Under the pieces are notes generated by a model. That model did not search any database. It was not told the origin of the DNA and worked only from the letters and a program-made list of their open reading frames with translations. Source: a virus. Taken from it: a DNA stretch of 45,333 nucleotides. Position numbers and translations under genes: made by a program. The stretch is from positions 1 through 45,333 of IMG/VR virus record IMGVR_UViG_3300042868_012464, one strand, 5' to 3'. Of this stretch, positions 9,401 through 40,809 are shown piece by piece (positions within the stretch are counted from its first letter, which is position 1; each line of letters begins with the position of its first letter).

Positions 9401-11468
9401 AAACTGTACCTATGGCAACTGTTCCATTACCTTCAGAATGTGACGCACTACCACTAGCAGTTGTTCCTAAACCTTCAGCATGTGAATTAACACCAATAGC
9501 TTTTGTGTTAGCACCTTCAGAATGCGATGCAGCACCAATGGCAGTTGTATTATTACCTTCAGCATGTGATGAAGTATTTGATGCAGTTGTATTATTACCT
9601 TCAGCATGTGAATTTTGACCAATAGCATTTGTGTTAGCACCTTCAGCATGTGAAGATTGACCACTAGCTATTGTAGATTGACCTTCAGCGTGTGAATTGA
9701 TACCATACGCTAATGTTTGACTACCTTCAGTATGTGAATTATCACCAATTGCAGTTGTTTGACTACCCTCAGCATGTGATGAACTACCACTTGCAATTGT
9801 ACTATCACCCTCAGCATGCGATGCATAACCACTTGCTATCGTAGCAACACCTTCAGCGTGTGAATAATCACCAACAGTTGTTGTATTAGCACCTTCAGCA
9901 TGTGATGAACTACCACTAGCTATTGTAGTATTACCCTCAGAATGTGAATATAAACCACTAGCCCTTGTTAAATAACCCTCAGCATGTGCAGCTGTATTTG
10001 ATGCGGTTGTTCCAGAACCCTCAGAATGTGATGAATCACCAACAGCTATTGTAAAAGCACCTTCAGCATGTGAACCACGAATACCAATTGAAGTTGTTGC
10101 ATAACCTTCAGCGTGAGATGTATCACCAATAGCATTAGTATCTTCACCTTCAGCATGTGATGCTCCACCAATAGCTTTAGCACCTTGACCTTCAGCATGC
10201 GAATTATTACCAAAAGATGATGTGCCATAACCTTCAGCATGTGAATAATCACCACTAGCAGTTGTTAAATAACCTTCAGTATGTGAAACTTCACCACTAG
10301 CTGTTGTTTCGACACCTTCAGCATGTGAATAATCACCACTAGCTATTGTTTCGAAACCCTCAGCGTGTGATGAAATACCACTAGCTATTGTAAACTGACC
10401 CTCAGCATGTGAACCACCAATACCAATTGAAGTTGTTGCATAACCTTCAGCGTGAGATGTATCACCAATAGCATTTGTGTTAGCACCTTCAGAATGCGAT
10501 GCAGCACCAATGGCAGTTGTATTATTACCTTCAGCATGTGATGAAGTATTTGATGCAGTTGTATTATTACCTTCAGCATGTGAATAATCACCACTAGCAG
10601 TTGTTAAATAACCTTCAGTATGTGAATTATCACCAATTGCAGTTGTTTGACTACCCTCAGCATGTGATGAACTACCACTTGCAATTGTACTATCACCCTC
10701 AGCATGCGATGCATAACCACTTGCTATCGTAGTAACACCTTCAGAGTGAGAAGCTATTCCTATGGCTGTTGTAGATTGTCCTTCAGCATGTGATGATGTC
10801 CCACTAGCTATTGTTGAAGCTCCTTCTGAGTGAGAGTCACCGCCTATTGCTGTTGTTCCTTGACCTTCGGCGTGAGACGCAGTACCCAAAGATATAGAAG
10901 TATCACCTTCTGCGTGAGACTGATCGCCTACTGCTGTTGTGCCACCTCCTTCTGCGTGAGAATTTATACCCGTTGAGCTTGTATTATATCCTTCAGCATG
11001 TGCATTTAAACCTGCTGCAACTGTGAACCTACCTTCAGCGTGTGATGATTCACCACTTGCTATTGTCCCCTTACCTTCTGCATAACTATAGTCACTAGTT
11101 GCATCTAAGCCAGAATCATTATTGGCTTTTATAGAATAACTGCCACTCGAACCAGAAGTAAATACTGAACTTCCAGTTAAATAAGATTCTAATGGCGCAG
11201 ATCCTACAAAATAGGAGCTTGCTGACAAAGAAGAAAATAGTGGATTATCTGTGACACTAATTGTATAAATAGGTGCAGAACCACTATAACTTAAAGAGGC
11301 ATCAATGTTAGTTGAGGCGGATACAATAGTTGTTCCTGTATTTGCGGCAACTTGTAAGTTTATTACAGTGTCCTGTAAACACTCAAAGTTGTTATTTATT
11401 TTAACTCTACCTTCATTTGGATTGTCAGTAGATAAAACTTGTTGTATGGTGCAGGCTGTTAAAGGCAT
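6486..11468 (-). CDS. Giant SHAEG-repeat tail fibre with C-terminal beta-helix
   Basis: A 1660-aa protein. Residues 1-127 are a unique N-terminus (NPNEGRVKINNNFECLQ), probably the virion attachment part. Residues 128 to about 1210 are about 77 consecutive units of 14 residues (two units have 15), of the form SHAEGxxTxASGxx or SHAEGxxTxAIGxx. This is the pattern of YadA-type head repeats, which fold as trimeric left-handed beta-rolls. A linker (VYVPNLNIN, LLVRDTDGTIKYR) is followed by ~370 residues with beta-helix character (FNNCTFIG, LNNCNVIN, FNNCVLLS). It leads the fibre operon and is preceded by a TATTTATA promoter-type motif. It probably forms a very long, thin trimeric fibre with a receptor-binding tip at the C-terminus. 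The repeat assignment is clear; the fold and role are inferred. Confidence 0.88.
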   Translation of the reverse strand: MPLTACTIQQVLSTDNPNEGRVKINNNFECLQDTVINLQVAANTGTTIVSASTNIDASLSYSGSAPIYTISVTDNPLFSSLSASSYFVGSAPLESYLTGSSVFTSGSSGSYSIKANNDSGLDATSDYSYAEGKGTIASGESSHAEGRFTVAAGLNAHAEGYNTSSTGINSHAEGGGTTAVGDQSHAEGDTSISLGTASHAEGQGTTAIGGDSHSEGASTIASGTSSHAEGQSTTAIGIASHSEGVTTIASGYASHAEGDSTIASGSSSHAEGSQTTAIGDNSHTEGYLTTASGDYSHAEGNNTTASNTSSHAEGNNTTAIGAASHSEGANTNAIGDTSHAEGYATTSIGIGGSHAEGQFTIASGISSHAEGFETIASGDYSHAEGVETTASGEVSHTEGYLTTASGDYSHAEGYGTSSFGNNSHAEGQGAKAIGGASHAEGEDTNAIGDTSHAEGYATTSIGIRGSHAEGAFTIAVGDSSHSEGSGTTASNTAAHAEGYLTRASGLYSHSEGNTTIASGSSSHAEGANTTTVGDYSHAEGVATIASGYASHAEGDSTIASGSSSHAEGSQTTAIGDNSHTEGSQTLAYGINSHAEGQSTIASGQSSHAEGANTNAIGQNSHAEGNNTTASNTSSHAEGNNTTAIGAASHSEGANTKAIGVNSHAEGLGTTASGSASHSEGNGTVAIGTVSHAEGQQTIASGDSSHAEGSYTTAVGVSSHAEGSGTTASNTAAHAEGYLTIASGDSSHAEGYLTIASGDSSHAEGGYTTAVGVSSHAEGNQTAAIGVNSHAEGDQTAAIGEFSHAEGLMSTSIGGYSHAEGGSTTSTGSGSHTEGFTTTALGDYSHAEGYYAIAIGLNSHAEGYYTTAYEESSHAEGNYSEAIGLYSHAEGNGSRSSGSTSHAEGNGSNAYGDNSHAEGNGSNAYGNHSHAEGDGSQAFGIGSHSEGNGSNAYGNYSHSEGNGSNAIGTYSHAEGDGVIASGQSSHAEGQQTTAVGNTAHSEGSGTTAFGAYSHAEGYLTIASGDSSHAEGYSAITIGIYSHAEGYSTIASGSSSHAEGSLTTAGGAQSHAEGLFGTANGQGAHAEGYGGLASGAYSHVEGQSNQATFQAAHAEGLNTRALNTASHAEGGATTASGLYSHSEGLSTKATGDQSHTEGSGTTASNVAGHAEGQSTTASGTASHSEGSSTVASGNYSHAGGISSIASGLTSFVHGSGSTAGGSGTIVLGNNITGGIANTVYVPNLNINTAPSNDNTLTQLLVRDTDGTIKYRSSSSISGSTGVFGISNSGGTYTYYATLSLAMSAASAGQTIEVFADYTESVSGTTVLIKPNVILQGNGHSYFHTASGDTDTFSFGTNDDHFIYNYNIIRTNATGGYVINRVPFSPYNVYFNGTTIKTNQNGVLFHFSQPGNIYNLTLITTGAGIGVQGSGSNFNNCTFIGTSTSSGALASAGVTLNNCNVINRGTGTSVGDCYLNNTTVISYASAAVNGAYGITNSYIYSLTSYACLLFNNGLARNSVFISSGSYAAYIYNANSRYDNCLLWSTVNNAFYASLGGDLKFNNCVLLSSAAVALNAHSVEATNCTIESLWNNSDGHAVAITSSDSVITNCTLRVGNASAYALHGASAYTPKYANNVYAGMTTPVHPNITQGIINTHDNQGNILI
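9218..9301 (-). repeat. Adjacent near-identical 42-bp units
   Basis: Two consecutive units encode the same YLTIASGDS-SHAEG peptide with the same codons (the plus strand shows the same caccactagctattgtt core twice, 42 bp apart). This looks like a very recent single-unit duplication. Confidence 0.85.
9502..9613 (-). repeat. 112-bp exact direct repeat, copy 1 (copy 2 at 10474-10585)
   Basis: Reading by eye, 112 consecutive bases at 9502-9613 are identical to 10474-10585, 972 bp away. The block covers units encoding the NNTTASNTS / NNTTAIGAA / SEGANT series. Recombination between the copies would remove or add about 23 repeat units in frame. Confidence 0.85.
9723..9844 (-). repeat. 122-bp exact direct repeat, copy 1 (copy 2 at 10611-10732)
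   Basis: Bases 9723-9844 and 10611-10732 are identical by eye, 888 bp apart. The spacing equals 21 units, two of which have an extra codon. The block encodes TIASGYA / DSTIASGSS / SQTTAIGDN. It points to segmental duplication or gene conversion inside the fibre gene. Confidence 0.85.
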
Positions 11469-16470: not shown

Positions 16471-16926
16471 TTATCTAATATTATTTCTTCCTTTTGTAGT
16501 ACTCATTAAAGTTGAGTCAAATATACCCATTCCTTTTTTGTTTCCAGCACCACCAGCTTTTCTTAGATTTTCTTTAGTCTTCATACTGCTATCATGAAAC
16601 TTAGATAGCTCTCTTTCAACCCAATCTCTACACGCATCACCACCATGTAGATTCCAACTTTGGTCTTTCTTATTTTCTTCGTTTTCCTCAACTGATTTAA
16701 AAAAATCTCTCAGCTTTTTTATTTGATTGAATGTTTGTGCTTTACCACTAGACAATTCAACAGCCTTCTCTAGTTTAGACCCAGTAGAAGCCATAGCTTG
16801 CTTGGCAATGTTCATAACATCGCTTGGAACGGGAAATGTTTTATTGTAGCTGAAGTCTCCTACATTTTCATTTACCAATTCCTGATAAGATTCTTCTATT
16901 ATTTTTCTGATTATTTTTCTAATCAT
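16471..16926 (-). CDS. Hypothetical protein with short amphipathic N-terminal helix
   Basis: A 151-aa protein that starts MIRKIIRKIIEESYQELVNE. This is a short amphipathic helix of the kind seen at the N-terminus of several proteins in this window, followed by a Glu-rich end that could be a prohead-protease-type cleavage region. The rest is polar, with SWNLHGGDACRDWVERELSKFHD near residues 90-112 and a Gly/Lys/Asn-rich C-terminus ending KGRNNIR. It begins 1 nt after the stop of the 154-aa gene. No known family is recognised. An internal capsid protein carried by its N-terminal helix is one possible reading. Confidence 0.7.
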   Translation of the reverse strand: MIRKIIRKIIEESYQELVNENVGDFSYNKTFPVPSDVMNIAKQAMASTGSKLEKAVELSSGKAQTFNQIKKLRDFFKSVEENEENKKDQSWNLHGGDACRDWVERELSKFHDSSMKTKENLRKAGGAGNKKGMGIFDSTLMSTTKGRNNIR

Positions 16927-17403: not shown

Positions 17404-17886
17404 TTACCATGTGATAATTCCAATTCCTAAATCTCCAGAGTAGAATCTTATTGATTTAGGAATTGCTGATTGATAAACTCTCTCCAAATCCCATCTTATT
17501 TTGTCACCAACCATTCTGCCATTTGCATTTGTTGGAAGGTCTGTACTAGCCATAATGTCTCCATTGTCATCAACAATTTCATTCATATTTGCTATAAAAG
17601 GATCTGTTTCACTTGATGTGTTTACAAACTTTTCTAAATATGATTTAAATATTTCTGGAGCTTCTTTACCTTTTTTTTCGCTTTTAGAATACCACTTTAC
17701 AAAATCATCATAATTAGCGACAACACTCATAGGTTTGTCATATGTTGTTGTAAAATCTATTCTTATATAGTTATCATCTTTAGACAAAGAAACATCATCA
17801 ACGTCTCTTATTGAACTCTCGTCCAAATAAAAAAAGTCTTTTGTGTTTTCATTTAAGAAACTCAAATATAAATCTTTGATTCTCAT
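17404..17886 (-). CDS. Hypothetical protein, 160 aa, first gene of a late-type unit
   Basis: A 160-aa protein that starts MRIKDLYLSFLNENTKDFF, resembling the short N-terminal helix plus N-E sequence of T4-type capsid-targeted proteins. The rest is acidic and beta-rich (DDNYIRIDFTTTYDKPMSVVANYDDFVKWY) and ends SIRFYSGDLGIGIITW. It has a TATTTATA motif about 15 nt upstream and is the first gene of the unit 17886-16471. No known domain or membrane segment is visible. The capsid-targeting reading is an inference from the N-terminal pattern. Confidence 0.72.
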   Translation of the reverse strand: MRIKDLYLSFLNENTKDFFYLDESSIRDVDDVSLSKDDNYIRIDFTTTYDKPMSVVANYDDFVKWYSKSEKKGKEAPEIFKSYLEKFVNTSSETDPFIANMNEIVDDNGDIMASTDLPTNANGRMVGDKIRWDLERVYQSAIPKSIRFYSGDLGIGIITW

Positions 17887-21153: not shown

Positions 21154-21681
21154 ATGAAAAATTATAACAACAAAAAAACTGAAGAACACAAGATAAACAC
21201 CAACATTAAAGAATTTGAGGTGAGGCTAGTTGATTTACCTGAAAATTATGAAAATGGAGTTTACAAAACAGATGTTGCCTTAAGAATAGCAGAGGAGATA
21301 GGTTCTGATTTGATTCTTATTTCAGACAAAACCAAGCCTGTCATATGTAAGATTATGGATTATTCCAAATTTAAGTATGAAAAAAAGAAAAAAGAAAAAG
21401 ATTTAAAAAAGAAGACTTCCGTTTTAAAAGAATTGAAGTTTAGTCCTGATATTGCAGAAAATGACTTGATGATAAAGTCAAAAAAGGCAATAGAATTTTT
21501 GAACGAAGGGAATAAAGTTAGAGTAACTGTTCAATTCAAAGGAAGGGGGATTGTATTTAAAGATAGAGGCGCAATTGTTTTACTTAAATTAGCAGAACTA
21601 GCACAAGAAGCTGGACTTCCAGAGTCTATGCCTGAATTAAACGGAAAAAGAATGTCTTTCACATTAAAGCCTAAGAAATAA
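21154..21681 (+). CDS. infC: Translation initiation factor IF-3
   Basis: A 175-aa full-length IF3. The N-terminal domain (about residues 15-80) has INTNIKEFEVRLVD, ALRIAEEIGSDLILIS and KPVICKIMDYSKFKYE, which match the IF3 signature. A Lys-rich linker helix (KKKKEKDLKKKTSVLKELKF) leads to the C-terminal domain with KAIEFLNEGNKVRVTVQFKGRG, KDRGAIVLL and the end ELNGKRMSFTLKPKK. The FKGRxIVFKDRG and LxGKRM forms are those I associate with Bacteroidota IF3. In cells IF3 binds the 30S subunit, controls start-codon and initiator-tRNA choice and prevents premature 50S joining. The gene has a strong shared promoter and is followed after 2 nt by the 167-aa gene. Phage-encoded IF3 is unusual; capture from a host and use to bias translation towards phage mRNA is inferred. 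Confidence 0.93.
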   Translation: MKNYNNKKTEEHKINTNIKEFEVRLVDLPENYENGVYKTDVALRIAEEIGSDLILISDKTKPVICKIMDYSKFKYEKKKKEKDLKKKTSVLKELKFSPDIAENDLMIKSKKAIEFLNEGNKVRVTVQFKGRGIVFKDRGAIVLLKLAELAQEAGLPESMPELNGKRMSFTLKPKK

Positions 21682-25669: not shown

Positions 25670-26035
25670 ATGGAAAAGGTTAGTCAAGAAGAATTGAATG
25701 AAGGATTGAAAGCTTACAGCGATGTTTCTACCAAAATGGTTGAAAAACTGAACAAAAAGTTTAAATTTATTTTGTTTTTGTATAACAAAAATACATTATT
25801 TATAATGTTTTGGATTGCAACAATGTTACCATGTTTTTTTCTGTATTTATTTGCTGGAATAACTTATGCAACAAACCTAATTGCTTCGATTGTGTTTTTG
25901 ATTTACCCAATACTATTCTTTATTTATAAAAGAACAATGTTTAAATATAGTGAAATAGAAGATGAATACTTCAGAAGAAAAGTTGAGGTTTTTGAATATG
26001 TATTAAAAAATAGAAAAGAAAAAGGGGCTAAATAG
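25670..26035 (+). CDS. Small two-helix membrane protein, presumed early
   Basis: A 121-aa protein. A charged helix (VSQEELNEGLKAYSDVSTKMVEKLNKKF) is followed by two transmembrane helices at about residues 44-66 (LFIMFWIATMLPCFFLYLF) and 70-90 (TNLIASIVFLIYPILFFIY), then a charged C-terminal helix of ~30 residues. It is a single-gene unit with the TTGTAAC/CGTATA promoter and its own terminator, on the strand opposite to the neighbouring late-type genes. The sequence is not clearly similar to the 106-aa membrane protein at 27011, but the layout is the same. An early inner-membrane role, such as exclusion of other phages or host takeover, is possible; the function is unknown. Confidence 0.78.
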   Translation: MEKVSQEELNEGLKAYSDVSTKMVEKLNKKFKFILFLYNKNTLFIMFWIATMLPCFFLYLFAGITYATNLIASIVFLIYPILFFIYKRTMFKYSEIEDEYFRRKVEVFEYVLKNRKEKGAK

Positions 26036-26063: not shown

Positions 26064-26903
26064 TTATTTTGATCTTGGAAGGCTTAACATATCTTTTACT
26101 GTATCTATAAAACCAATTCTTTGGTCAGAAGCAAGTAATCCGTCAATACCAGCTTGATCAGCGATTCCATCTAGATATTTCTCTATATCTTTTATTACCA
26201 AACCTTTAGCTCTAGCATCTACAGCTTGTTTAAATTTTTCTACATACGCTAAAAGATTTCTATCTTTAACAGTGTTAGCAGCTAATTCGATATAACCTTT
26301 TTTAACTTTTTTAGCTCCTACTATAAGATTAATAATTCCTAATATAAATGAAAGAGCAGCTGAATATACAAGCGGGTTTGCTAACATAAATCCTCCTGGT
26401 ATTGCTCCAGTGGCTACAGCCCATGCAATTCCGCCTAATATAATACCTATACTAAAAGTACCAAATCCAAGACCTTTTAATATTTTACCAAATCTAATTT
26501 TAAATTCACCAATATTTTCTTTGACAGTTTGATTATCATCTTCATTTAAAGCATATTCTTTTAATACGTTTTGAGCAACAGCAGCAGCCTGTTTTGCTTC
26601 TCCAGCAGGATTACTAAGTGCGTCTTGAGCTTCTGAATCCTGACTAATACCTTGAGCAATTTGCTCTGGAGTCATTTTTATAGCAGATAAAAAACCTTGA
26701 ACGTCTGCCTGTGTAGCTGGTCTTACCTTAACAGGCGCAGCCCCTTCTTCAGCTTCGTCCATAACTTCCTCCATATACATTTCATTAAGTCTTTTAAGAA
26801 GTTTTTTCTTTTCAGCCTCTAGAGTTAATTTCTTTTTAAATCTAGCAGCTTCCTCAGAAATAATTTCTCTAAGTCTAGATTCTGATATAATTTCTTTTGC
26901 CAT
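26064..26903 (-). CDS. Membrane-segment protein with duplicated N-terminal tag
   Basis: A 279-aa protein. Residues 1-50 (MAKEIISESRLREIISEEAA, then FKKKLTLEAEKKKLLKRL and an acidic end) are nearly identical to the start of the 151-aa protein at 27386-27841. An Ala/Gln-rich region follows, then two hydrophobic stretches at about residues 150-172 (FGTFSIGIILGGIAWAVATG) and 176-200 (MLANPLVYSAALSFILGII). The rest is a charged C-terminal domain (KKGYIELAANTV, KDIEKYLDGIADQAGIDGLL). It has a TATTTATA motif. The shared tag on otherwise different proteins suggests a targeting sequence, perhaps for packaging into the head. A membrane-active protein delivered with the DNA would fit, but this is speculative. 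Confidence 0.75.
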   Translation of the reverse strand: MAKEIISESRLREIISEEAARFKKKLTLEAEKKKLLKRLNEMYMEEVMDEAEEGAAPVKVRPATQADVQGFLSAIKMTPEQIAQGISQDSEAQDALSNPAGEAKQAAAVAQNVLKEYALNEDDNQTVKENIGEFKIRFGKILKGLGFGTFSIGIILGGIAWAVATGAIPGGFMLANPLVYSAALSFILGIINLIVGAKKVKKGYIELAANTVKDRNLLAYVEKFKQAVDARAKGLVIKDIEKYLDGIADQAGIDGLLASDQRIGFIDTVKDMLSLPRSK

Positions 26904-26939
26904 AGCTTTTGTTTTTAATTTATTTATAAATATGAAAAA
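26769..26939 (-). repeat. Duplicated promoter plus N-terminal tag, copy 1 (copy 2 at 27707-27877)
   Basis: About 170 bp covering the TATTTATAAATA promoter motif, leader and first ~45 codons are nearly identical to 27707-27877. Differences are few and mostly silent or conservative. Outside this block the two genes are unrelated. Confidence 0.85.
26925..26932 (-). promoter_or_regulatory. TATTTATA-class promoter motif before the 279-aa gene
   Basis: On the minus strand CATATTTATAAATAAATT lies about 21 nt before the ATG at 26903. The identical element precedes the paralogous start at 27841 (27863-27870). Confidence 0.65.
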
Positions 26940-26952
26940 AAAATTAAATTCT

Positions 26953-26981
26953 TTGTAACATATTTATAATTATAACGTATA
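26953..26981 (+). promoter_or_regulatory. TTGTAAC-N16-CGTATA promoter of the 106-aa membrane protein gene
   Basis: TTGTAAC (26953-26959), exactly 16 nt, then CGTATA (26976-26981), 29 nt before the ATG at 27011. This is the third member of the class. Confidence 0.7.
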
Positions 26982-27010
26982 GTAAGGTATAAACAATAAA
27001 TTTAAAAAAG

Positions 27011-27331
27011 ATGAGTAGTTTGCCGTTTGAAATGAGAGAGGAACAAGATAAGCAAAGAAAAGAAAAACTTGAGCTTATTCATAAATTCCAAGATAAGCTA
27101 AATTTTTCAATAGTTAGCTTAGTGTTCTTTGTTGCACTAACTGGATATACATTCTTTGTGCCAATTATTTTTACTGGCGTTATTTTGCCTATTTTATTTG
27201 GGGCTATTTCGTTAGTTTTTGTTCAACAAGTTATTCGTTCATATAACTACCTTGAGTTTTACAAAAACAACTATAGTTTTATGGAGAGTGTTTATAATAT
27301 AGTAGAAGAAGATTTTAATTCAAATAATTAA
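27011..27331 (+). CDS. Small two-helix membrane protein, presumed early
   Basis: A 106-aa protein with a charged N-terminal helix (EMREEQDKQRKEKLELIHKFQDKL), two transmembrane helices at about residues 31-52 (FSIVSLVFFVALTGYTFFVP) and 55-75 (FTGVILPILFGAISLVFVQQ), and a short polar C-terminus. It has the TTGTAAC/CGTATA promoter and a terminator of its own, exactly like the 121-aa protein at 25670. The two are probably expressed together early. The function is unknown; superinfection exclusion or another membrane takeover role is a guess from the layout. No signal peptide or lipobox is visible. Confidence 0.78.
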   Translation: MSSLPFEMREEQDKQRKEKLELIHKFQDKLNFSIVSLVFFVALTGYTFFVPIIFTGVILPILFGAISLVFVQQVIRSYNYLEFYKNNYSFMESVYNIVEEDFNSNN

Positions 27332-27335
27332 AAAC

Positions 27336-27365
27336 AAAAAAGCGACTAACTTAGTCGCTTTTTTG
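27336..27365. terminator. Bidirectional terminator between convergent genes
   Basis: The stem AAAAAAGCGACTAA / TTAGTCGCTTTTTT has A and T runs on both sides and lies between the stops at 27331 (plus) and 27386 (minus), so it can serve both. Confidence 0.9.
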
Positions 27366-27385
27366 TTTAACTTAAATAGTTATAT

Positions 27386-27841
27386 TTATTCTCTAATTGG
27401 ACTTCCCTTCCCTTGGTCTCTAAGTGCTCCTCCTGCGATTGTTCCAAGTTGTTGCAACTTAGTAAGGTTTGGCGCAAAAGCTAACACTAAATAATCACCA
27501 CGCTTAGCTGGTTTTAAACTAAGACTACCTTTGAAAGGGATGCTTGCTGACGCAGCTTGTTTAAGAATATCTTCTTTAGAAGGAAGTATTTTCTTACCCT
27601 GAGGTGCTGTTGCTAGTAAGGCATCTAATTCTTTTACAAAAGATTGTCTATTAGCTTCAACTTCTTCTTTGCTAGGGCCAAACCATGCTTCTTCCATAGC
27701 TTCTTCTTCCATGTAGATTTCTTGAAGTCTGTTAAGAAGTTTTTTCTTTTCAGCCTCTAGAGTTAATTTCTTTTTAAATCTAGCTACTTCTTCAGAAATA
27801 ATTTCTCTAAGAGCAGATTCTGATATAATTTCTTTTGCCAT
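27386..27841 (-). CDS. Protein with duplicated N-terminal tag, 151 aa
   Basis: A 151-aa protein whose first ~48 residues (MAKEIISESALREIISEEVA, FKKKLTLEAEKKKLLNRL, YMEEE) repeat the start of the 279-aa protein. The rest (residues 55-151) is unrelated: a helical part (FVKELDALLATAPQGKKIL), then a basic, beta-type segment (FKGSLSLKPAKRGDYLVLAFAPNL) and a Gly-rich end. No membrane segment is visible. It has the same TATTTATA promoter and leader as its partner. The shared tag with a different body suggests the tag directs both to the same place, for example the prohead. The function of the body is unknown. Confidence 0.75.
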   Translation of the reverse strand: MAKEIISESALREIISEEVARFKKKLTLEAEKKKLLNRLQEIYMEEEAMEEAWFGPSKEEVEANRQSFVKELDALLATAPQGKKILPSKEDILKQAASASIPFKGSLSLKPAKRGDYLVLAFAPNLTKLQQLGTIAGGALRDQGKGSPIRE

Positions 27842-27862
27842 TGATTTTATTTTTAATTTATT

Positions 27863-27870
27863 TATAAATA
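27863..27870 (-). promoter_or_regulatory. TATTTATA-class promoter motif before the 151-aa tagged gene
   Basis: On the minus strand CATATTTATAAATAAATT lies about 21 nt before the ATG at 27841, identical to the element at 26925-26932. Confidence 0.65.
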
Positions 27871-27880
27871 TGAAAAAAAA

Positions 27881-27940
27881 TTACTTTTCTTTTATTCTAT
27901 TCATTAAACTTTTAAAAATACTTTCATCCGAATGTTCCAT
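27881..27940 (-). CDS. Possible 19-codon peptide or gene remnant
   Basis: A frame of 19 codons (M27940 to TAA at 27881; peptide starts MEHSDESIFKSLMNRIKEK) with an A-rich leader. It lies between the tagged 151-aa gene and the plus-strand endonuclease gene, just where a mobile endonuclease may have been inserted. It could be a real small peptide, the 3' remnant of a disrupted gene, or chance. The stop codon in frame just upstream shows it is not part of a longer open frame. Confidence 0.25.
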   Translation of the reverse strand: MEHSDESIFKSLMNRIKEK

Positions 27941-27979: not shown

Positions 27980-28870
27980 ATGTTTGCAGAAAAAGCTAAA
28001 AAAGTACATAGTGATAAATACGACTATTCTTTAGTTGAATATAAGTCGGCTAAAACAAAAGTTAAGATAATATGTAATAAACATGGTGTTTTTGAGCAGA
28101 CACCGAGCAACCACTTATCAGGTAAAGGATGTAGGTTTTGCGCTAAAAATGTAAAATATACAAATGAAGAGATAGTAGAAATGTTTAAGAGAGAACATAA
28201 AAACAAATACTCGTATGGTGAAGTAAAATACGAGAGTATGTTTAAAAAAGTAAAAATAAAATGTATAACACATAATTTTTTTGAGCAAACACCCAAAAAT
28301 CATTTAATGGGAAAAGGATGTCCGAAATGTGCTGGCAAAAAATTAGATAAATATGAAATCATAAACGAGTTAACAAATGTGCACGAAGGTGTTTATGATT
28401 ATTCACAAGCCGAACCTAAAAAATCAAAAGACAAGATTAAAATAATATGCAAAACACATGGAGTTTTTTTGCAAACATTAGATTGCCACAAAAGAGGTCA
28501 AGGGTGTCCTAATTGTAAAAAATCAAAAGGGGTTAATTTGGTAAAAAAATTTTTAGAAAAAAATAATTTACAATATGAAAATGAATTCACTTTTGATCAG
28601 TGCAGGAATCCGAAAACACAAAAACTACTTCCGTTTGATTTTTATATACCAATTAAGAATACTTGCATAGAGTATGATGGTGAACAACATTTTAAACCTA
28701 TGAGATTTTCTAGAGACAATCAAAAATCACTAGAGGATATAAAATTCAGAGATAACATAAAAGATATTTTTTGTAAAAACAATAACATTAACTTACTTAG
28801 AATAAACTTTAAAGAGTTTAATGATATAGAAAAATTATTGACTTTTTATTTTTTCAATCAAAGCCTTTAG
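27980..28870 (+). CDS. Probable mobile (homing-type) endonuclease with three zinc ribbons
   Basis: A 296-aa protein. Three related repeats of ~60 residues each have HxxKYxY...K(V/I)KI-x-C-x2-H...G-x-GC-x2-C: C32/H35/C51/C54, C95/H98/C114/C117 and C157/H160/C176/C179. They are probable DNA-binding zinc ribbons. The C-terminal ~100 residues hold a PD-(D/E)xK-type nuclease of the VSR-like EDxHD group: PFDFYIP (D220), then CIEYDGEQHF (E231, D233, H237). This architecture is common in free-standing homing endonucleases of phages. It is encoded on the strand opposite to its neighbours, and its last 36 nt overlap the 3' end of the helicase gene, as expected for an invading element. Its target site is not known. 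Confidence 0.85.
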   Translation: MFAEKAKKVHSDKYDYSLVEYKSAKTKVKIICNKHGVFEQTPSNHLSGKGCRFCAKNVKYTNEEIVEMFKREHKNKYSYGEVKYESMFKKVKIKCITHNFFEQTPKNHLMGKGCPKCAGKKLDKYEIINELTNVHEGVYDYSQAEPKKSKDKIKIICKTHGVFLQTLDCHKRGQGCPNCKKSKGVNLVKKFLEKNNLQYENEFTFDQCRNPKTQKLLPFDFYIPIKNTCIEYDGEQHFKPMRFSRDNQKSLEDIKFRDNIKDIFCKNNNINLLRINFKEFNDIEKLLTFYFFNQSL

Positions 28871-32505: not shown

Positions 32506-33057
32506 ATGTTACTTAGTGAATCATACAAGGATAGACTGAAGAAGTTAGCTGGCTTAATGCCACTAGATGAAGCTATGAGCGTAGCTGATAAAACAGTCGC
32601 TATGAATAAAAGCTCTGAAAGATTTGGATTTAATGCTGAAACTATGAAACAAGCCATAGAACAAGGTCGTGAAATTGGTCTGAATTTTCAATCCAATAAC
32701 AAGAAATATAAAATGCCCACAACAAAATCTAGAATTATTTGGCCTGTTGCAATGGGTATGGATGAAAAAGGAAATCTTGTAATTAGAGGATATCACTTAG
32801 AGGGTCAATCTGAAAAAGTGGCAAGAGAAACAGGGTCTAGAAGTGCGGAAGCACAAGATGTTTGGAGACTATTTAAAGCCTCTAACATTAAAAGTATGTG
32901 GTTTACAGATAACTTCTTTAGCCAACCACTTCCTAACTACAAAGAAAGAGATAGTGCAATGGTTAGCATGATGGCTAGCTATAGCCCTGCTAAAGCAAAA
33001 GCATATCAAGATTCAATTAAAAACCAAGTAGAGCCAAACTCAGAAACAGAAGTTTAA
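32506..33057 (+). CDS. Hypothetical phage protein, possible WYL-like fold
   Basis: A 183-aa protein. It starts MLLSESYKDRLKKLAGL, a short N-terminal helix of a type I know from T4-like phage proteins and that may direct proteins to the prohead. A folded domain follows with KSRIIWPVAMGMDEKGNLVIRGYHLEGQSEK (I avoid the full run), then DVWRLFKASNIKSMWFTDNFF. The P-x-x-x-G-x-x-x-x-GN-x-x-x-R-x-Y/x-H-x-x-G plus WR-x-F-x-x-x-x-I-x-S-M pattern recalls WYL-type ligand-binding domains. No DNA-binding HTH is present. It is on the plus strand between minus-strand modules, convergent with the 145-aa gene (4-nt overlap). The function is unknown. Confidence 0.75.
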   Translation: MLLSESYKDRLKKLAGLMPLDEAMSVADKTVAMNKSSERFGFNAETMKQAIEQGREIGLNFQSNNKKYKMPTTKSRIIWPVAMGMDEKGNLVIRGYHLEGQSEKVARETGSRSAEAQDVWRLFKASNIKSMWFTDNFFSQPLPNYKERDSAMVSMMASYSPAKAKAYQDSIKNQVEPNSETEV

Positions 33058-33491
33058 AAAATTAACAATTTTTCGGCTTTTCCTTTTATGTTTTCCAAAT
33101 TATAAGAACAAGAGGTATATCCAATTTTTGATCCTTCCAATAAGAAAGATTTATCTTTTACATATAGATTATATATTGAATAACCTCTTTTTATTTCAAA
33201 TACAAGCATGTTTCTTACAAAGCCTTTCAGTAGCCCGTTGTTGACTATTTCCCATCTAATCTTATCTCCTTTCTTGAGAGCATCTTCGATTGTTTTTATC
33301 TTTTTTTGTTCCTGAACTTTTCTTTGGTTGTCTCGGATTTTTCTATCTATAATTGATTGGATAGCTTGACGTTGAAGCATTTCTCTTTCGTATGCTTCTC
33401 TCTGAAGGTTCATAGCTCTTTCTTCCGCAGCTTTCTTTATAAACTCGGATGGATTTTCCTCTATTGGTTTATCTTCGTATTCGTCTTCCAT
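33054..33491 (-). CDS. Hypothetical protein, 145 aa, with N-terminal coiled coil
   Basis: A 145-aa protein. Residues ~15-70 form a long charged helix likely to be a coiled coil (EFIKKAAEERAMNLQREAYE and on to KKIKTIEDAL). Residues 73-145 form a small beta-rich domain (KGDKIRWEIVNNGLLKGFVR, VFEIKRGYSIYNLYVKD). KGDKIRWEI...G.VR looks like a small SH3/KOW-like barrel start. It overlaps the stop of the SbcDC gene by one base and is therefore coupled to it. It may be an accessory of the recombination nuclease; the family is not recognised. Confidence 0.72.
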   Translation of the reverse strand: MEDEYEDKPIEENPSEFIKKAAEERAMNLQREAYEREMLQRQAIQSIIDRKIRDNQRKVQEQKKIKTIEDALKKGDKIRWEIVNNGLLKGFVRNMLVFEIKRGYSIYNLYVKDKSFLLEGSKIGYTSCSYNLENIKGKAEKLLIF

Positions 33492-36400
33492 TATGATATT
33501 GATAATGTTGTTACACCTGCTTCAGGGTTTGCATCTAAAATCTCTTGAGGTATTCCTTTTTTTATCTTGGTAACCTCAATGATGTTATCAGCAAAATCCT
33601 TAATCTCATTTTTGTGAGTAACAAAAACTACATTCTTGTGCTTATTCTTTAAATATTGTAAAATATTTACAATTTCCAAAGAAAGTCTATCACCTAGTGT
33701 ACCAAACCCCTCATCTATAATGGACATAGATGGCTTTGTAAGCGTGCTAATAAAGTGTAGAGCATCTTTTATAGCAATGGAAGCTACGAACTTCTGAGCG
33801 CCAGATGCAAACTGCAAAGGAAGTGAATCTGATTTATCTTCGCTATAATAGAAATACTCAAAAATATCTCCATTAGGAAGAATATCTAACTCAACTTTAA
33901 ACCCTACTATCTGTTGCAATATCGAATTTATCTTGCTGTTTATTATAGGAAGTTTCTTTCTGATAATCAAAGCAGGAATTCCATCTCTGTGCATAGCTTG
34001 CAGGTAGATAGAATATTTTTTAAACATTCTTTCTACTTCTTTTATAGATTCCAATTTTTCTGAATTTATCTTTATATCAGACTCCAAAACTCGAATATCA
34101 CCATATACTTCAGTGATGTTCTTATCTAGACCATATAACGTTACTTTGTATGCCTTTAGAAATTCATCTTGTGAATCTATGTAATCTTGAATTTGTTTAT
34201 TTTTATCTTCCTTATTTTTGTTTTCAGCAATTTTTGTTAAATTTTCCTTCAAAGATTCTATTGTTTTTTCCGCTTTTGACTTTACGGCTCTACCTTTTTC
34301 TAGTCTTGATGAATTATCTTCAACCTTTTTGTTATGTTCTATAATTTCCTTCATAGATTCAAACAAAGACAATCTGTCTTTAAGTAAATCTATTTTCTCT
34401 TTTCTGTTCTTTAGTGAATCAGTAAGATTTTTTTTCTTTTCAACCTGACCATCAATTACAATATTTTGTTTTGTAATCTCATTGAAGGAGTTTATTTGAG
34501 CTTGTAAAGTTTCAATTTCGCCCTTCTTCAACTCTATATTAGCTAAACATTCTTTCTCCTTTTCAGGATCTGCTTTTTGTTGAACATTTCCACAGGTAGG
34601 ACAAGATTTACCCCTAAGCGTTGGAAGCTGGTTTTGAAGACTTGTCATTTCTTCCCTTAGCAATATTATCTTTGCGTCCAAACCATCAATATTTGGCAAA
34701 TCTTTTTTAGGGTTTTCTTTTACCCAAGAATCAATCTTAACATAATCATCTTTCTCTGTTTTAAAAACAGATTGTACGGACGCCAATTCTTTAGAAACTC
34801 CTTCCTCAGTCTCCCCTTCTTTGAATGGGAGTTCTTTTTTAAAGTTTTTAGACAACCAATCTTCAAGGTCTTTGATTGCGGTGTCATATTTTTCTATATT
34901 TTCACCTTCTTCTTTAAGAAGTTTTTCTACTACTGAAGAATCGTTGTGTGTTAATTTTTCTACTTTCTCTAACTTCTTTGTTTGTTCTAAAATATCCGTT
35001 TCTACAGCTTCTTTATTTTTTGAAACATCTTCTTTTTCGGCCTTTAGCCTATCAAGCATAATATCTTTTTCTGACTTAGTTTTTTCTAAATCAGTAATCT
35101 TTAACTCAATCTCAAGCTTTGCTCCAATTTCTTTCTGTTTCTTTTTTATCTCCTTAAAGTACTCATTTGCGTACTCATATCTCATTTTATAGGCTTCCAA
35201 TCCAAGGTATCTGCTTATCAAGGAGTTTTTTGGTTGTTGACTTTGATTGATGTAATCATCTTTGCCCCCCTGAACTTGAAGGGTTACTTTTGTGAAATCA
35301 TCCACATCCCCAATAGCTTCTTCCACCAAACTTTCAACCTCTCTTTTTTCTGCAGTTGCTTTGTCTGACTTTTCGTTTTCCCAAGATTCACTTTCCAGGT
35401 CACCATCACCATCATAACCCAACTCTAGTGATTGATATTTTATACCATAAGAATTTGATATTCTACCATCCTTATGTTTTGTTGTTTTTACAGTACGATG
35501 AATCTTGAATTTTTTATCATCTATAGTCAAGTATATTGTTACATATCCTTGATTAGAATCTGTATATAAGTTGACAAGGAACTTTGGATCCCCGCCTCCC
35601 AATATCTCTTTGTAAAGTCCCCAAACTATCGCCTTAATAACATTCGATTTCCCATTGTAGTTTTCTCCGAATAAACCAGTAATACCATTGAGCGAGTTGA
35701 AGTCGATAGTTGTTGGTTTTATTGGAAAAGAAAAAATATTACTTATTTCTATTTTTTCCATATACCACGAACTACCAGTCTTATCTTCGTGTTCGTTTAT
35801 GCCAAGCTCCTGATTGATTTGAGCGTTTAATTTTAAAATATCTTTAATCTCCTCATCATCACAATCAAATGTCCCATCAGCAATAAACTCTTTGATATAC
35901 TCCTCGCTTTGTTTTCTTGGGTCTTCTTGCGACTCATCATCTACGAGAATATCCTTAGCCACAAATGAATGTTCTACTTTTACAATTTCACACCCATGAT
36001 CTTCTTTTATCTTTCTAGCAATTTGATTCTCTCTTTCTTGTGAAAAGTTTTCTTCCAATTCCTCGATGATAATATGAACTCTAGTTTTCTTTTTATTGTG
36101 GCTAAATCTCAAATGAGTTAATCTATCCTCAATGTTTTCACCTCTTGCAATCACAAGTTTAGAAAATCCGTAATCATTCGGAATAAACTTTCTAACGTGA
36201 GAATTTGAATCTGTATCCCACAACAAATAACCTTTGTCGATAGACTCGCCATAATTTTGTTGTATAAGGCTTCCACAATAAGCAACAGAGGCATCGTCTC
36301 TAAAAGATTGGTACTCATGTATATCTCCAAGCATAACCATATCAAAATGCTTGAATGTGCTTAATCTCATAAGATTATCGCCTTTTTGCTCGTAACCATT

Positions 36401-36946
36401 ATCACCCCTAGCCCCATAGACAGTTCCATGATATAAACCAATATATGTTTTATCATCATCTTTATCTAAAAGCTCTAGAATTTCATTATCCTTGCAAGAA
36501 AAAACTCCGTAAACAACATCATTTCCTATATCATAAAAACCACTATCAGGAAAGTAGTAAACGGCGTTTTTGCTATAATCTATCTTATCTTTATTTTCAT
36601 CAGTAACAATAAATGCAGTTTTATCCCCATCTTTTTCAAACATACTACCCAATTTGAATATTGGGGAAATTGCATCACCCTGCTCAAGCTGTTGTAGGTT
36701 TAAATCATGATTTCCCAATATTACATCCGTTGGTGCTATTTTTGATAAATTTAAAAGAAGCTCAGCCAACAACTCAAAAGAGTTTGGAGACATATTAATT
36801 TTGTGATGAACCAAGTCACCACCAAGAAAAATCCTATCAGGTTTTTGTAATTTTAAATCATCATAAAGTCTTTTAAAAACTTGTCTATATTCGTCATGTC
36901 TAGATCCAAATCGTATTTGGATGTCCGCTAAATGTGCAATTTTCAT
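33491..36946 (-). CDS. Fused SbcD-SbcC (gp47-gp46-like) recombination nuclease
   Basis: A 1151-aa single polypeptide combining both subunits of the Mre11/Rad50-type complex. Residues 1-~340 are the metallophosphatase (D8, D44 in GGD, GNHD at 78-81, H173 in LYHG, GDIH at 207-210). In the first motif the usual D-x-H reads D-I-Q. Residues ~396-1151 are the SMC-like ATPase: Walker A GENYNGKS (427-434), a long coiled coil with a zinc hook CPTC (782-785), the signature near LQFASGAQKF (1044-1053), Walker B SIIDEGFG (1075-1082) and VFVTHK. In T4 the two activities are separate genes (47 and 46) that resect DNA ends for recombination-dependent replication. The start overlaps the primase stop by 4 nt. 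Confidence 0.94.
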   Translation of the reverse strand: MKIAHLADIQIRFGSRHDEYRQVFKRLYDDLKLQKPDRIFLGGDLVHHKINMSPNSFELLAELLLNLSKIAPTDVILGNHDLNLQQLEQGDAISPIFKLGSMFEKDGDKTAFIVTDENKDKIDYSKNAVYYFPDSGFYDIGNDVVYGVFSCKDNEILELLDKDDDKTYIGLYHGTVYGARGDNGYEQKGDNLMRLSTFKHFDMVMLGDIHEYQSFRDDASVAYCGSLIQQNYGESIDKGYLLWDTDSNSHVRKFIPNDYGFSKLVIARGENIEDRLTHLRFSHNKKKTRVHIIIEELEENFSQERENQIARKIKEDHGCEIVKVEHSFVAKDILVDDESQEDPRKQSEEYIKEFIADGTFDCDDEEIKDILKLNAQINQELGINEHEDKTGSSWYMEKIEISNIFSFPIKPTTIDFNSLNGITGLFGENYNGKSNVIKAIVWGLYKEILGGGDPKFLVNLYTDSNQGYVTIYLTIDDKKFKIHRTVKTTKHKDGRISNSYGIKYQSLELGYDGDGDLESESWENEKSDKATAEKREVESLVEEAIGDVDDFTKVTLQVQGGKDDYINQSQQPKNSLISRYLGLEAYKMRYEYANEYFKEIKKKQKEIGAKLEIELKITDLEKTKSEKDIMLDRLKAEKEDVSKNKEAVETDILEQTKKLEKVEKLTHNDSSVVEKLLKEEGENIEKYDTAIKDLEDWLSKNFKKELPFKEGETEEGVSKELASVQSVFKTEKDDYVKIDSWVKENPKKDLPNIDGLDAKIILLREEMTSLQNQLPTLRGKSCPTCGNVQQKADPEKEKECLANIELKKGEIETLQAQINSFNEITKQNIVIDGQVEKKKNLTDSLKNRKEKIDLLKDRLSLFESMKEIIEHNKKVEDNSSRLEKGRAVKSKAEKTIESLKENLTKIAENKNKEDKNKQIQDYIDSQDEFLKAYKVTLYGLDKNITEVYGDIRVLESDIKINSEKLESIKEVERMFKKYSIYLQAMHRDGIPALIIRKKLPIINSKINSILQQIVGFKVELDILPNGDIFEYFYYSEDKSDSLPLQFASGAQKFVASIAIKDALHFISTLTKPSMSIIDEGFGTLGDRLSLEIVNILQYLKNKHKNVVFVTHKNEIKDFADNIIEVTKIKKGIPQEILDANPEAGVTTLSIS

Positions 36947-38753: not shown

Positions 38754-40376
38754 ATGAAATATCGCTTAAGAACAAAAATTACATTAGCTATTGCTATTAT
38801 AACGATGCTAATTTTTGGATGGGTTAAAACCTCAGTTCTTATCGGCCATATGCCTTCTACAAATACTACTAGGTGGACGGAATTTATATGTTTTATCTTA
38901 TTCATTCCTATATTCATTCTATTAATCCGAGATGCAATCAATTCTACTAAATATTCAGTATCTAAAGATTTAGTAAATAAGGTGACTGATCTTGAGATTT
39001 TTTTAGATTCTTCTTCTATCATTTCTAAAGCGGATAAACACGGAAAAATCACTTATGTGAATGAGAAATTTACGGAAGTATCTGGTTATTCACTAGAAGA
39101 AGTGATTGGCAAAGACCATAACGTTGTAAACAGCGGAACACATTCAAAAGAGTTTTGGTCTGATATGTATCGTACAGTTGTTAAAGAAAAAAAAATTTGG
39201 AACGCTATATGCACCAATCGCAAAAAAGATGAATCCCTATATTACGTAGATACGTTTATTAAATGTGAGTTTGATGAAAAAGGTAATCTTCAAGGATTTA
39301 TGTCAATTCGCCAAGATGTTACTGAATTAAAAAGAAAAGAAACTGAGATTTCTAACAGAATGAACGCTATTAACCAGTCGAATGCGGTTATTGAATTTGA
39401 CTTAGAGGGTAACATAAAATTCGCTAATAAGCTATTTTTAAAAACTTTAGGATATGATAAAAATGAAGAGCTTGTCGGAAAACATCATAGTTTATTTGTT
39501 GAAGATGGTGTAAGAGATACTAAAGAATACCGAGATTTTTGGAAAACTTTAGGTGAAGGAAAATTCTTTAGTGGAGAGGTTACACGAAAGAAAAAAGACG
39601 GAACTATAATTTATCTTCAAGCAACATACAATCCTATTATAGATAATGACGGTAAATCTTATCGAGTAATGAAAATTGCTACTGATATTACCGAAAGCTA
39701 TAATCAGCAGAAAGAGATAGAAAAGAAAAATACATATCTTGAGCATGCTGCTAAAATACTTAGGCATGACATGCATAGCGGAATTAACACTTATATGCCT
39801 CGTGGTTTGACTTCGTTAGACAGAAGATTAACTGAAGAACAAATAAAAGAATTGAAAATTGAAGCTCCTATTAAAATGATAAAAGAAGGCCTTCGACATA
39901 CACAGAAAGTCTATAAAGGAGTTTACGAATTTACTAATCTTGTAAAGAAAGATGTAGTGTTAAATCGATTGAATTGTAATCTGAAAGCTATTCTAGAAGA
40001 TTATCTTTCTGCAACAGCTTATAGATCTCAAGTTAATCTTTCTGACCTAGGGGAGTTTAGTGTTAACGAAGCGTTATTTTGCACATCATTAGATAATTTA
40101 ATACGCAACGGTCTTAAATATAATGATAGCTTATCTAAAATGATAAATATATATAGAGTAGATGATACATTATTTGTAGAAGATAACGGTAGAGGTCTAT
40201 CCCAAGAAGAATTTAATCATTTATCTAAGCCATATACTCGTAAAGAAGGGCAGCAAGAATCTGGAACAGGCCTAGGTCTTAATATCTGTATTGCTATATT
40301 AGAAGAGCATAAATTTTCAATTACTTGTGATAAATTACCTCAGGGTGGAACTCAAATTAAAATAAAATTAAAATAA
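38754..40376 (+). CDS. Membrane histidine kinase with two PAS domains in the lysis operon
   Basis: A 540-aa sensor kinase. Two transmembrane helices at about residues 9-24 and 43-59 enclose a short ~20-residue external loop. PAS 1 covers ~80-195 (ISKADKHGKITYVNEKFTEVSGYS) and PAS 2 ~205-315 (AVIEFDLEGNIKFANKLF). The dimerisation helix carries H338 in ILRHDMHSGIN. The ATPase domain has an N-box LDNLIRNGLKYN (446-457), G1 VEDNGRGLS (475-483) and G2 GTGLGLN (504-510), so all catalytic boxes are present. Of 24 Arg codons about 13 are CGN, against none in the adjacent primase gene, which suggests later acquisition from a bacterium. It lies between the lysozyme and a receiver gene (1 nt). The signal sensed is unknown. 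Confidence 0.93.
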   Translation: MKYRLRTKITLAIAIITMLIFGWVKTSVLIGHMPSTNTTRWTEFICFILFIPIFILLIRDAINSTKYSVSKDLVNKVTDLEIFLDSSSIISKADKHGKITYVNEKFTEVSGYSLEEVIGKDHNVVNSGTHSKEFWSDMYRTVVKEKKIWNAICTNRKKDESLYYVDTFIKCEFDEKGNLQGFMSIRQDVTELKRKETEISNRMNAINQSNAVIEFDLEGNIKFANKLFLKTLGYDKNEELVGKHHSLFVEDGVRDTKEYRDFWKTLGEGKFFSGEVTRKKKDGTIIYLQATYNPIIDNDGKSYRVMKIATDITESYNQQKEIEKKNTYLEHAAKILRHDMHSGINTYMPRGLTSLDRRLTEEQIKELKIEAPIKMIKEGLRHTQKVYKGVYEFTNLVKKDVVLNRLNCNLKAILEDYLSATAYRSQVNLSDLGEFSVNEALFCTSLDNLIRNGLKYNDSLSKMINIYRVDDTLFVEDNGRGLSQEEFNHLSKPYTRKEGQQESGTGLGLNICIAILEEHKFSITCDKLPQGGTQIKIKLK

Positions 40377-40377
40377 A

Positions 40378-40809
40378 ATGATAGATTCAATTTTACTAGT
40401 AGATGATGAAAGTTTATTTCATCTAGTATTCGAAGACGCTTGTAGCCTTCTAGATATTTCACTTTCATTAGAGAGTCTGGATAGCTCTGATGAAGCAGCT
40501 AAACTTTTCTCAGGTTGGCAAAAAGAACCAAATGGAAGACCTGAGTGTGTATTTGTTGACTTGAATATAATCGGTTCTTCATACGATGGTATCGAGCTTA
40601 TACGTAAAATAAACTTTGAATATGGTAACAATGTAGTTATTGGAATTATATCCTCTTCTGATGAGCCTGAAGAACAAGCAAAAGCTGTTAAATCAGGAGC
40701 TCAATTTTGGATAATCAAGTCAGATGATATTGAGCCAAGGCTTGAAGAATTTAAAAAGGATTTTGAAGGTTATAAAAATAGAACAAATCCTTTCAAAATA
40801 TACAGGTAA
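40378..40809 (+). CDS. Stand-alone response regulator receiver protein
   Basis: A 143-aa CheY-like receiver with no output domain. The acidic pocket is D9-D10 (LLVDDE), the phospho-acceptor is D61 (VFVDLNI), the switch Ser is in GIISSSDEPE (about S92-S94) and the conserved Lys is K114 (FWIIKSDD). All receiver residues are present. The last ~25 residues (RLEEFKKDFEGYKNRTNPFKIYR) are a charged helix plus tail that could contact a partner. The gene starts 1 nt after the kinase stop and its stop overlaps the next start (TAATG), so the kinase, the receiver and the membrane protein are translationally coupled. It may act by protein-protein contact, for example on the following membrane protein. Confidence 0.9.
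   Translation: MIDSILLVDDESLFHLVFEDACSLLDISLSLESLDSSDEAAKLFSGWQKEPNGRPECVFVDLNIIGSSYDGIELIRKINFEYGNNVVIGIISSSDEPEEQAKAVKSGAQFWIIKSDDIEPRLEEFKKDFEGYKNRTNPFKIYR

Follow-up and report, generated by a model that had tools for sequence, protein, structure and literature searches.

Why should a phage place the same promoter and the same N-terminal peptide in front of two unrelated proteins? This question is raised by a stretch of 45,333 nucleotides (nt) from an uncultured T4-type phage (IMG/VR record IMGVR_UViG_3300042868_012464; the whole stretch is hereafter called the window), in which a direct repeat supplies two genes, A and B, with a promoter-like motif, a leader and an N-terminal tag. In phage T4, the internal proteins IPI, IPII and IPIII and the protein Alt start with a short capsid-targeting sequence (CTS), which docks them onto the core of the prohead and is cut off by gp21 (PMC7411985, PMC9026906), a protease that cleaves after the Glu of L/I-X-E (PMC9026906). 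The internal proteins of T-even phages form a diverse set in which the CTS alone is conserved (PMC3012670). Indeed, T4 Ip1, Ip2 and Ip3 share only their leader, and each inhibits a different GmrSD restriction enzyme (PMC12373910). The tag of the window probably works like the T4 CTS, as a capsid-targeting propeptide of a T4-type phage. Descent from the T4 CTS is not claimed, and packaging, cleavage, injection and cargo function are inferred.

The repeat and the two tagged genes

The two copies of the repeat (26765-26954 and 27703-27892) are 190 nt long and 89% identical, and lie 938 nt apart. Read on the minus strand, each contains a promoter-like AT-rich motif, CATATTTATAAATAAATTAAAAA, followed by the leader and codons 1-46 of a gene; the similarity ends there. 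Copy 1 begins gene A (26064-26903, minus strand; 279 amino acids, body B1) and copy 2 begins gene B (27386-27841, minus strand; 151 amino acids, body B2). Residues 1-46 of both products, encoded at 26766-26903 and 27704-27841 on the minus strand, read MAKEIISES[R/A]LREIISEE[A/V]ARFKKKLTLEAEKKKLL[K/N]RL[N/Q]E[M/I]YMEE. In both, L/I-X-E motifs end at E8, E13, E17 and E41, and a relaxed form of the motif stands at the junction with the body, after E50 in protein A (MDE↓A, the arrow marking the putative cut) and after E51 in protein B (MEE↓A).

A sequence-only reading of this stretch had described a near-identical block of promoter, leader and about 45 codons before two proteins, one membrane-type and one soluble. 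The block is as described, with about 46 codons, and the bodies indeed show no mutual similarity. Protein A is strongly hydrophobic, with a hairpin-like region at about residues 141-200 (maximum Kyte-Doolittle value 2.15), whereas protein B has no hydrophobic stretch (maximum 0.95) and is small, soluble and basic (isoelectric point 9.7). Neither body has a confident family in Pfam or PHROGs, and tblastn searches against phages with protein A, protein B, a 29-residue tag and one tagged protein gave no matches. A match of protein A to the tape-measure family phrog_305 (E 5e-4) covers residues 44-195 with a low score and was not accepted. In the predicted structure of protein B, which was built from six sequences and is of moderate confidence (predicted local distance difference test, pLDDT, 75), the tag forms one helix (residues 8-54) and the body starts at about residue 58, so that the predicted cut after E51 would fall near a domain boundary. 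This model has no PDB match at E <= 0.001, and the AlphaFold model of protein A was unusable (pLDDT 36).

Upstream of each gene stands a late-promoter-like motif, ATATTTATAAATAAATT (26918-26934 for gene A and 27856-27872 for gene B, both on the minus strand), within which TATTTATA starts 29 nt upstream of the ATG. The T4 late promoter is exactly TATAAATA; the window motif is TATTTATA(A). Within 50 nt upstream of called genes, TATTTATA occurs in 9 of 54 cases in the window against 0.74 expected, and a promoter function is thus a reasonable reading of the sequence. The motif lies about 25-30 nt ahead of the tagged genes and of several structural-type genes, and at the same distance ahead of the amidase gene and a large repeat protein gene; among the window genes scanned, it is absent ahead of the helicase, primase-like and Mre11/Rad50-like genes. 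One promoter variant, TATAAATAAATT, is common to both window copies and is unseen in the copies of the close relative G002.

The tag in relatives and in a wider family

In G002 (IMG/VR 3300042564_007729) and its near-twin G003, three genes are tagged: the orthologs of A (L004 6935-7774 in G002) and B, the latter also found in L035, and a third gene with a body of 165 amino acids. A fourth tagged body, of 251 amino acids, occupies the same spot beside the helicase gene in G001 (3300044630_007490). Hence, one tag is carried by four mutually unrelated bodies across three closely related contigs. In other contigs the tag is 92-98% identical at the protein level, and its ratio of non-synonymous to synonymous polymorphism (pN/pS) is mostly 0.1-0.4 (range 0.06-0.60). 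The tag is therefore neither a chance match nor purely a recent duplicate, and the peptide is under purifying selection.

More distant loci were fetched with the 1151-residue Mre11/Rad50-like protein of the window (33491-36946) as query. Within the 49 related loci obtained, a tagged gene is kept in this neighbourhood in at least 14 diverged ones, typically directly after the gene of a 644-residue helicase and before the amidase gene. The tags are diverged yet alignable (MAKKELTISEFREIIREEALKLKKRIVLENEKKAL in L035, MKIQEKELQQIIKEEAIRLKKKMMLEAEKSKIL in L044) and remain recognisable where the Mre11/Rad50-like protein is only 42-54% identical, and the bodies at the helicase-amidase locus fall into several unrelated groups. 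The nucleotide identity of the tags does not track orthology; together with the promoter variant shared by the window copies and unseen in those of G002, this suggests that cassettes recombine or undergo gene conversion with one another. As a separate observation, one protein of L042 (19473-20243) carries the second half of the tag (KEKxQLKKQLNELxED) as a tandem repeat.

The converse case, one body with different tags, is provided by the gene of a 183-residue protein at 32506-33057 (plus strand). It starts with MLLSESYKDRLKKLAGLMPLDE↓A in the window and its orthologs with MSKLTESYIRGVIREILSETLILE↓I in L037, L038 and L052. The exchanged N-termini mostly end in [LI]xE (PLDE↓A, SLDE↓G, VIEE↓A, LILE↓I), and from its sequence the product looks like a candidate second packaged protein with a different tag.

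Near the junction of tag and body, all 20 tagged homologues of this phage group have [LIMV][DE]E and then G, A, L, I or V, compared with 2.6 +/- 1.5 in shuffled sequences (maximum 8, n=2000); the reversed motif shows no enrichment (3 vs 2.6 shuffled). Junctions of this kind include LEE↓GLFGPS, IDE↓GLFDMF, LDE↓GLFGPG and MEE↓GIFGNI, beside MEE↓AWFGPS and MDE↓AEEGAA in the window. This motif was defined post hoc, on homologues that are related and not independent, and an independent set was therefore sought.

Such a set is the family of tags of the form MKxTxxxL[KR]xIIxEE. At the DNA level, this pattern occurs in at least 120 stretches of viral contigs, many of them with several copies (ten in one 289-kb record), while the pattern read backwards has no match across the 33 records tested. 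Among the matches listed, to which the counts below also refer, 155 open reading frames (ORFs) start with the motif, and they fall into 137 body families. The strict site [LI]xE is present at residues 17-34 in 84 of the 137 family representatives, against 35.1 +/- 4.6 after shuffling (maximum 52, n=2000), and [LI]xE followed by A, G or S in 38, against 8.6 +/- 2.8. The controls stay at the shuffled level ([LI]xD, 21 vs 22.6; [LI]xxE, 38 vs 33.0), and [VMFA]xE is depleted (30 vs 44 shuffled). The Glu of [LI]xE is mostly residue 21 or 22, which is where conservation of the tag ends. One sequence, L165, starts with MKITKEELKQIIREEAYKFKKKLQLESE and links the window tag to this family.

The form LKxIIKEE, strict or relaxed, was not found in T4, KVP40, S-PM2, P-SSM2, HTVC008M or RM378, nor in Mel-JY01, PA5oct, Slickus01, Va1 or vB_FspM_immuto. 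That exact form is therefore not a general feature of T4 phages. Three matches are present in the 484-kb metagenomic phage LR756508.

Head genes, known systems and alternative readings

Two relatives of the same clade, G021 and G029, encode an S77 prohead protease and a gp23-type capsid protein, that is, the major head protein. The N-domains of the capsid proteins contain comparable sites: MLNE↓VTL in G021 and G029, LLKE↓ASS, ILKE↓AST and LLKE↓STT in the more distant L119-L121, and FLTE↓AEI in T4. Tagged genes are also found within the protease-scaffold-capsid cluster itself, in L119 (12712-13152, MKITEKQLNQIIQEEIDQAIEEGWLDRL) and L121 (13318-13839, MKVTKQYLEQIIKEELESVVQESQLEEGFFDRV), with a weaker tag match in the same cluster of L118 (7031-7549). 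S77 is present in 16 of 26 tagged contigs, compared with 4 of 20 contigs chosen by an arbitrary 14-mer (Fisher p = 0.007). In phage PA5oct, head-cluster proteins annotated as seen by mass spectrometry (MKINDIITE↓GYYN, MSHRKELEKVLDLLLNE↓N) fit the idea, although they are too few to count.

The sequence-only reading had likened the tag to the targeting sequence of T4 internal proteins, with an acidic end suited to prohead protease. This proposal gains support from the modularity of the tag (many bodies share one tag, and a single body can have different tags), from the motif at its end, which is the strict [LI]xE in the wide family and the relaxed [LIMV][DE]E in the window group, and from the protease and capsid genes of the relatives, with similar tags in their head clusters. 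The likeness to T4, for which the N-termini of IPI and IPIII were read from the T4 record, extends to a leader common to unrelated bodies, hypervariable cargo, L/I-X-E sites, a T4-type protease with gp23 (here in relatives) and a late-promoter-like motif upstream.

Two other systems are instructive. In the phiKZ-like phage SPN3US, propeptides of gp45, gp47, gp53 and gp54 are cut by a gp21-related protease after X-X-E; their proposed role is to bring ejection proteins to the prohead, and the first 15 residues of gp53 and gp54 are identical (PMC5694885). Unlike the window tag, these propeptides mostly exceed 100 residues and use an A-X-E or S/A-X-E motif, the head genes are more distant, and no sequence similarity to the window tag was noted. 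The phiKZ-type signature of A-X-E or S-X-E is not what is seen in the wide tag family, where [LI]xE is enriched and [VMFA]xE falls below the shuffled level (S-X-E was not scored separately). The cultured Flavobacterium phage vB_FspM_immuto shows the same design. Four of its proteins, with unrelated bodies, share about 22 residues (MENFDLKKFLVENKLTxNSxLLKE), [LI]xE stands at the tag end in three of the four, and two of the four genes lie just upstream of the terminase gene. Its capsid protein aligns with that of G029 over 60% of its length at 44% identity, and an S77-type protease is annotated. The tag sequence differs from that of the window, and no published proteomics was found for this phage.

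Several observations weigh against a capsid-targeting role. Besides the post hoc definition of the junction motif, the window tag is long (46-51 residues vs 10-20 for the T4 CTS) and, in a side-by-side reading only, has no obvious similarity to the T4 sequence MKTYQEFIAE beyond MK and an X-X-E end. The residue at the window junctions is M, not L or I (MDE↓A, MEE↓A), the strict sites lying inside the tag. No protease, scaffold or capsid gene was found on the window contig, a 45-kb fragment, and substrate and enzyme are thus paired only via relatives; the S77 search also covered the close contigs, likewise fragments, and gave no match there. For contigs of at least 100 kb, the association with S77 is not significant (10/13 vs 3/7, p = 0.17). 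Finally, no proteomic data were found for any of the tagged proteins.

Part of the same evidence could be read otherwise. The tagged proteins might be parts of the prohead core or scaffold, like T4 gp67 and gp68, their bodies being consumed or serving as structural filler and not delivered. A long, acidic-ended helix with several L/I-X-E sites would suit such a role, as would the tags within the clusters of L118, L119 and L121. However, the bodies differ wholly between phages, which fits variable cargo better, most tagged genes of the wider family were identified with no regard to a head cluster, and the clustering of the site close to the junction speaks for a body that is retained; we consider this reading unlikely. 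The tag might also be a docking helix for another part of the virion or another machine (tail, baseplate, membrane or replication proteins). A wide range of partners is conceivable for an amphipathic helix, the window locus adjoins the amidase gene near tail genes, and the related contig G004 has mainly tail- or baseplate-type genes. Against this stand the specificity of the head-protease motif, whose enrichment is abolished by D for E or by a shift of one residue, the similar tags in head clusters and the enrichment of S77 in tagged contigs, which make a docking role slightly less likely again.

It is very improbable that the repeat is a recent duplication or gene-conversion tract without special function, the N-terminus being a passenger of promoter copying. 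The presence of TATAAATAAATT in both window copies and not in G002, and tag identity that ignores orthology, do indicate that recombination homogenises the region. However, a passenger would not be expected to show pN/pS values mostly of 0.1-0.4, to be kept in relatives as far away as 42-54% identity in the Mre11/Rad50-like protein, or to have related versions on 137 body families.

If the tag is a capsid-targeting propeptide, the repeat would be a late-expressed cassette of promoter and tag. The N-terminal helix of about 46-51 residues would dock each protein into the prohead core, and a T4-type prohead protease would cut after Glu at L/I-X-E-like sites, several within the tag and one near the junction. 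The body would be freed inside the mature head and then probably injected with the DNA. By multiplying and exchanging cassettes, the phage could give the same delivery to different bodies, B1 with its membrane-like segment and the small, basic B2 being two such cargoes.

Other genes of the window and possible meaning of the tag

Two small genes near the repeat keep their arrangement in relatives. A small predicted membrane protein gene (25670-26035, plus strand) is convergent with gene A, as in G002, and another (27011-27331, plus strand) lies between genes A and B, as in G002 and L035. An HNH/homing-endonuclease-like gene (27980-28870, plus strand; phrog_559, E 3e-71) adjoins the promoter of gene B and has its own TATTTATA; it is not at the corresponding spot in G001 and G002. 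Elsewhere on the minus strand, the products of 17404-17886 and 16471-16926 have N-termini, MRIKDLYLSFLNE↓N and MIRKIIRKIIEESYQELVNE↓N, that resemble short T4-type targeting leaders, and TATTTATA is found upstream of the former. A 1660-residue protein (6486-11468, minus strand) contains dozens of SHAEG-type repeats of about 14 residues, with a late-type motif upstream of its gene. On the plus strand, 21154-21681 encodes a homologue of translation initiation factor IF-3 (phrog_9787, E 7e-39), and 38754-40809 encodes a PAS/histidine-kinase-like protein (540 amino acids) directly followed by an apparent response regulator (143 amino acids), a two-component pair kept in G001.

This kind of system is familiar from T4. 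What appears undescribed is the tag family with its breadth, the two-way swapping of tags and bodies, and a cassette of promoter and tag at one fixed locus: a literature search, mostly without subscription papers, found none of the motif strings and no fitting metagenomic survey of CTS. The breadth also goes beyond the sequence-only reading, since similar tags are carried by well over 100 unrelated proteins across environmental T4-type phages. We lean towards the view that the L-[KR]-x-I-I-x-E-E helix with [LI]xE after it is a widespread address code of these phages, marking a large and fast-changing arsenal of head-packaged, injected proteins, with a promoter-plus-tag cassette that moves between bodies and effectors that can be listed from sequence. 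If this is true, the tag would offer a new way of loading phage heads with proteins of choice. It would also sort the small genes of environmental phages, most of which lack a known function: those with the tag would encode proteins that travel in the virion and enter the host as infection begins, as do T4 Ip1, Ip2 and Ip3, which disarm restriction enzymes from that position. Anonymous ORFs would thereby be turned into a list, open to testing, of proteins that are injected and possibly act against host defence.
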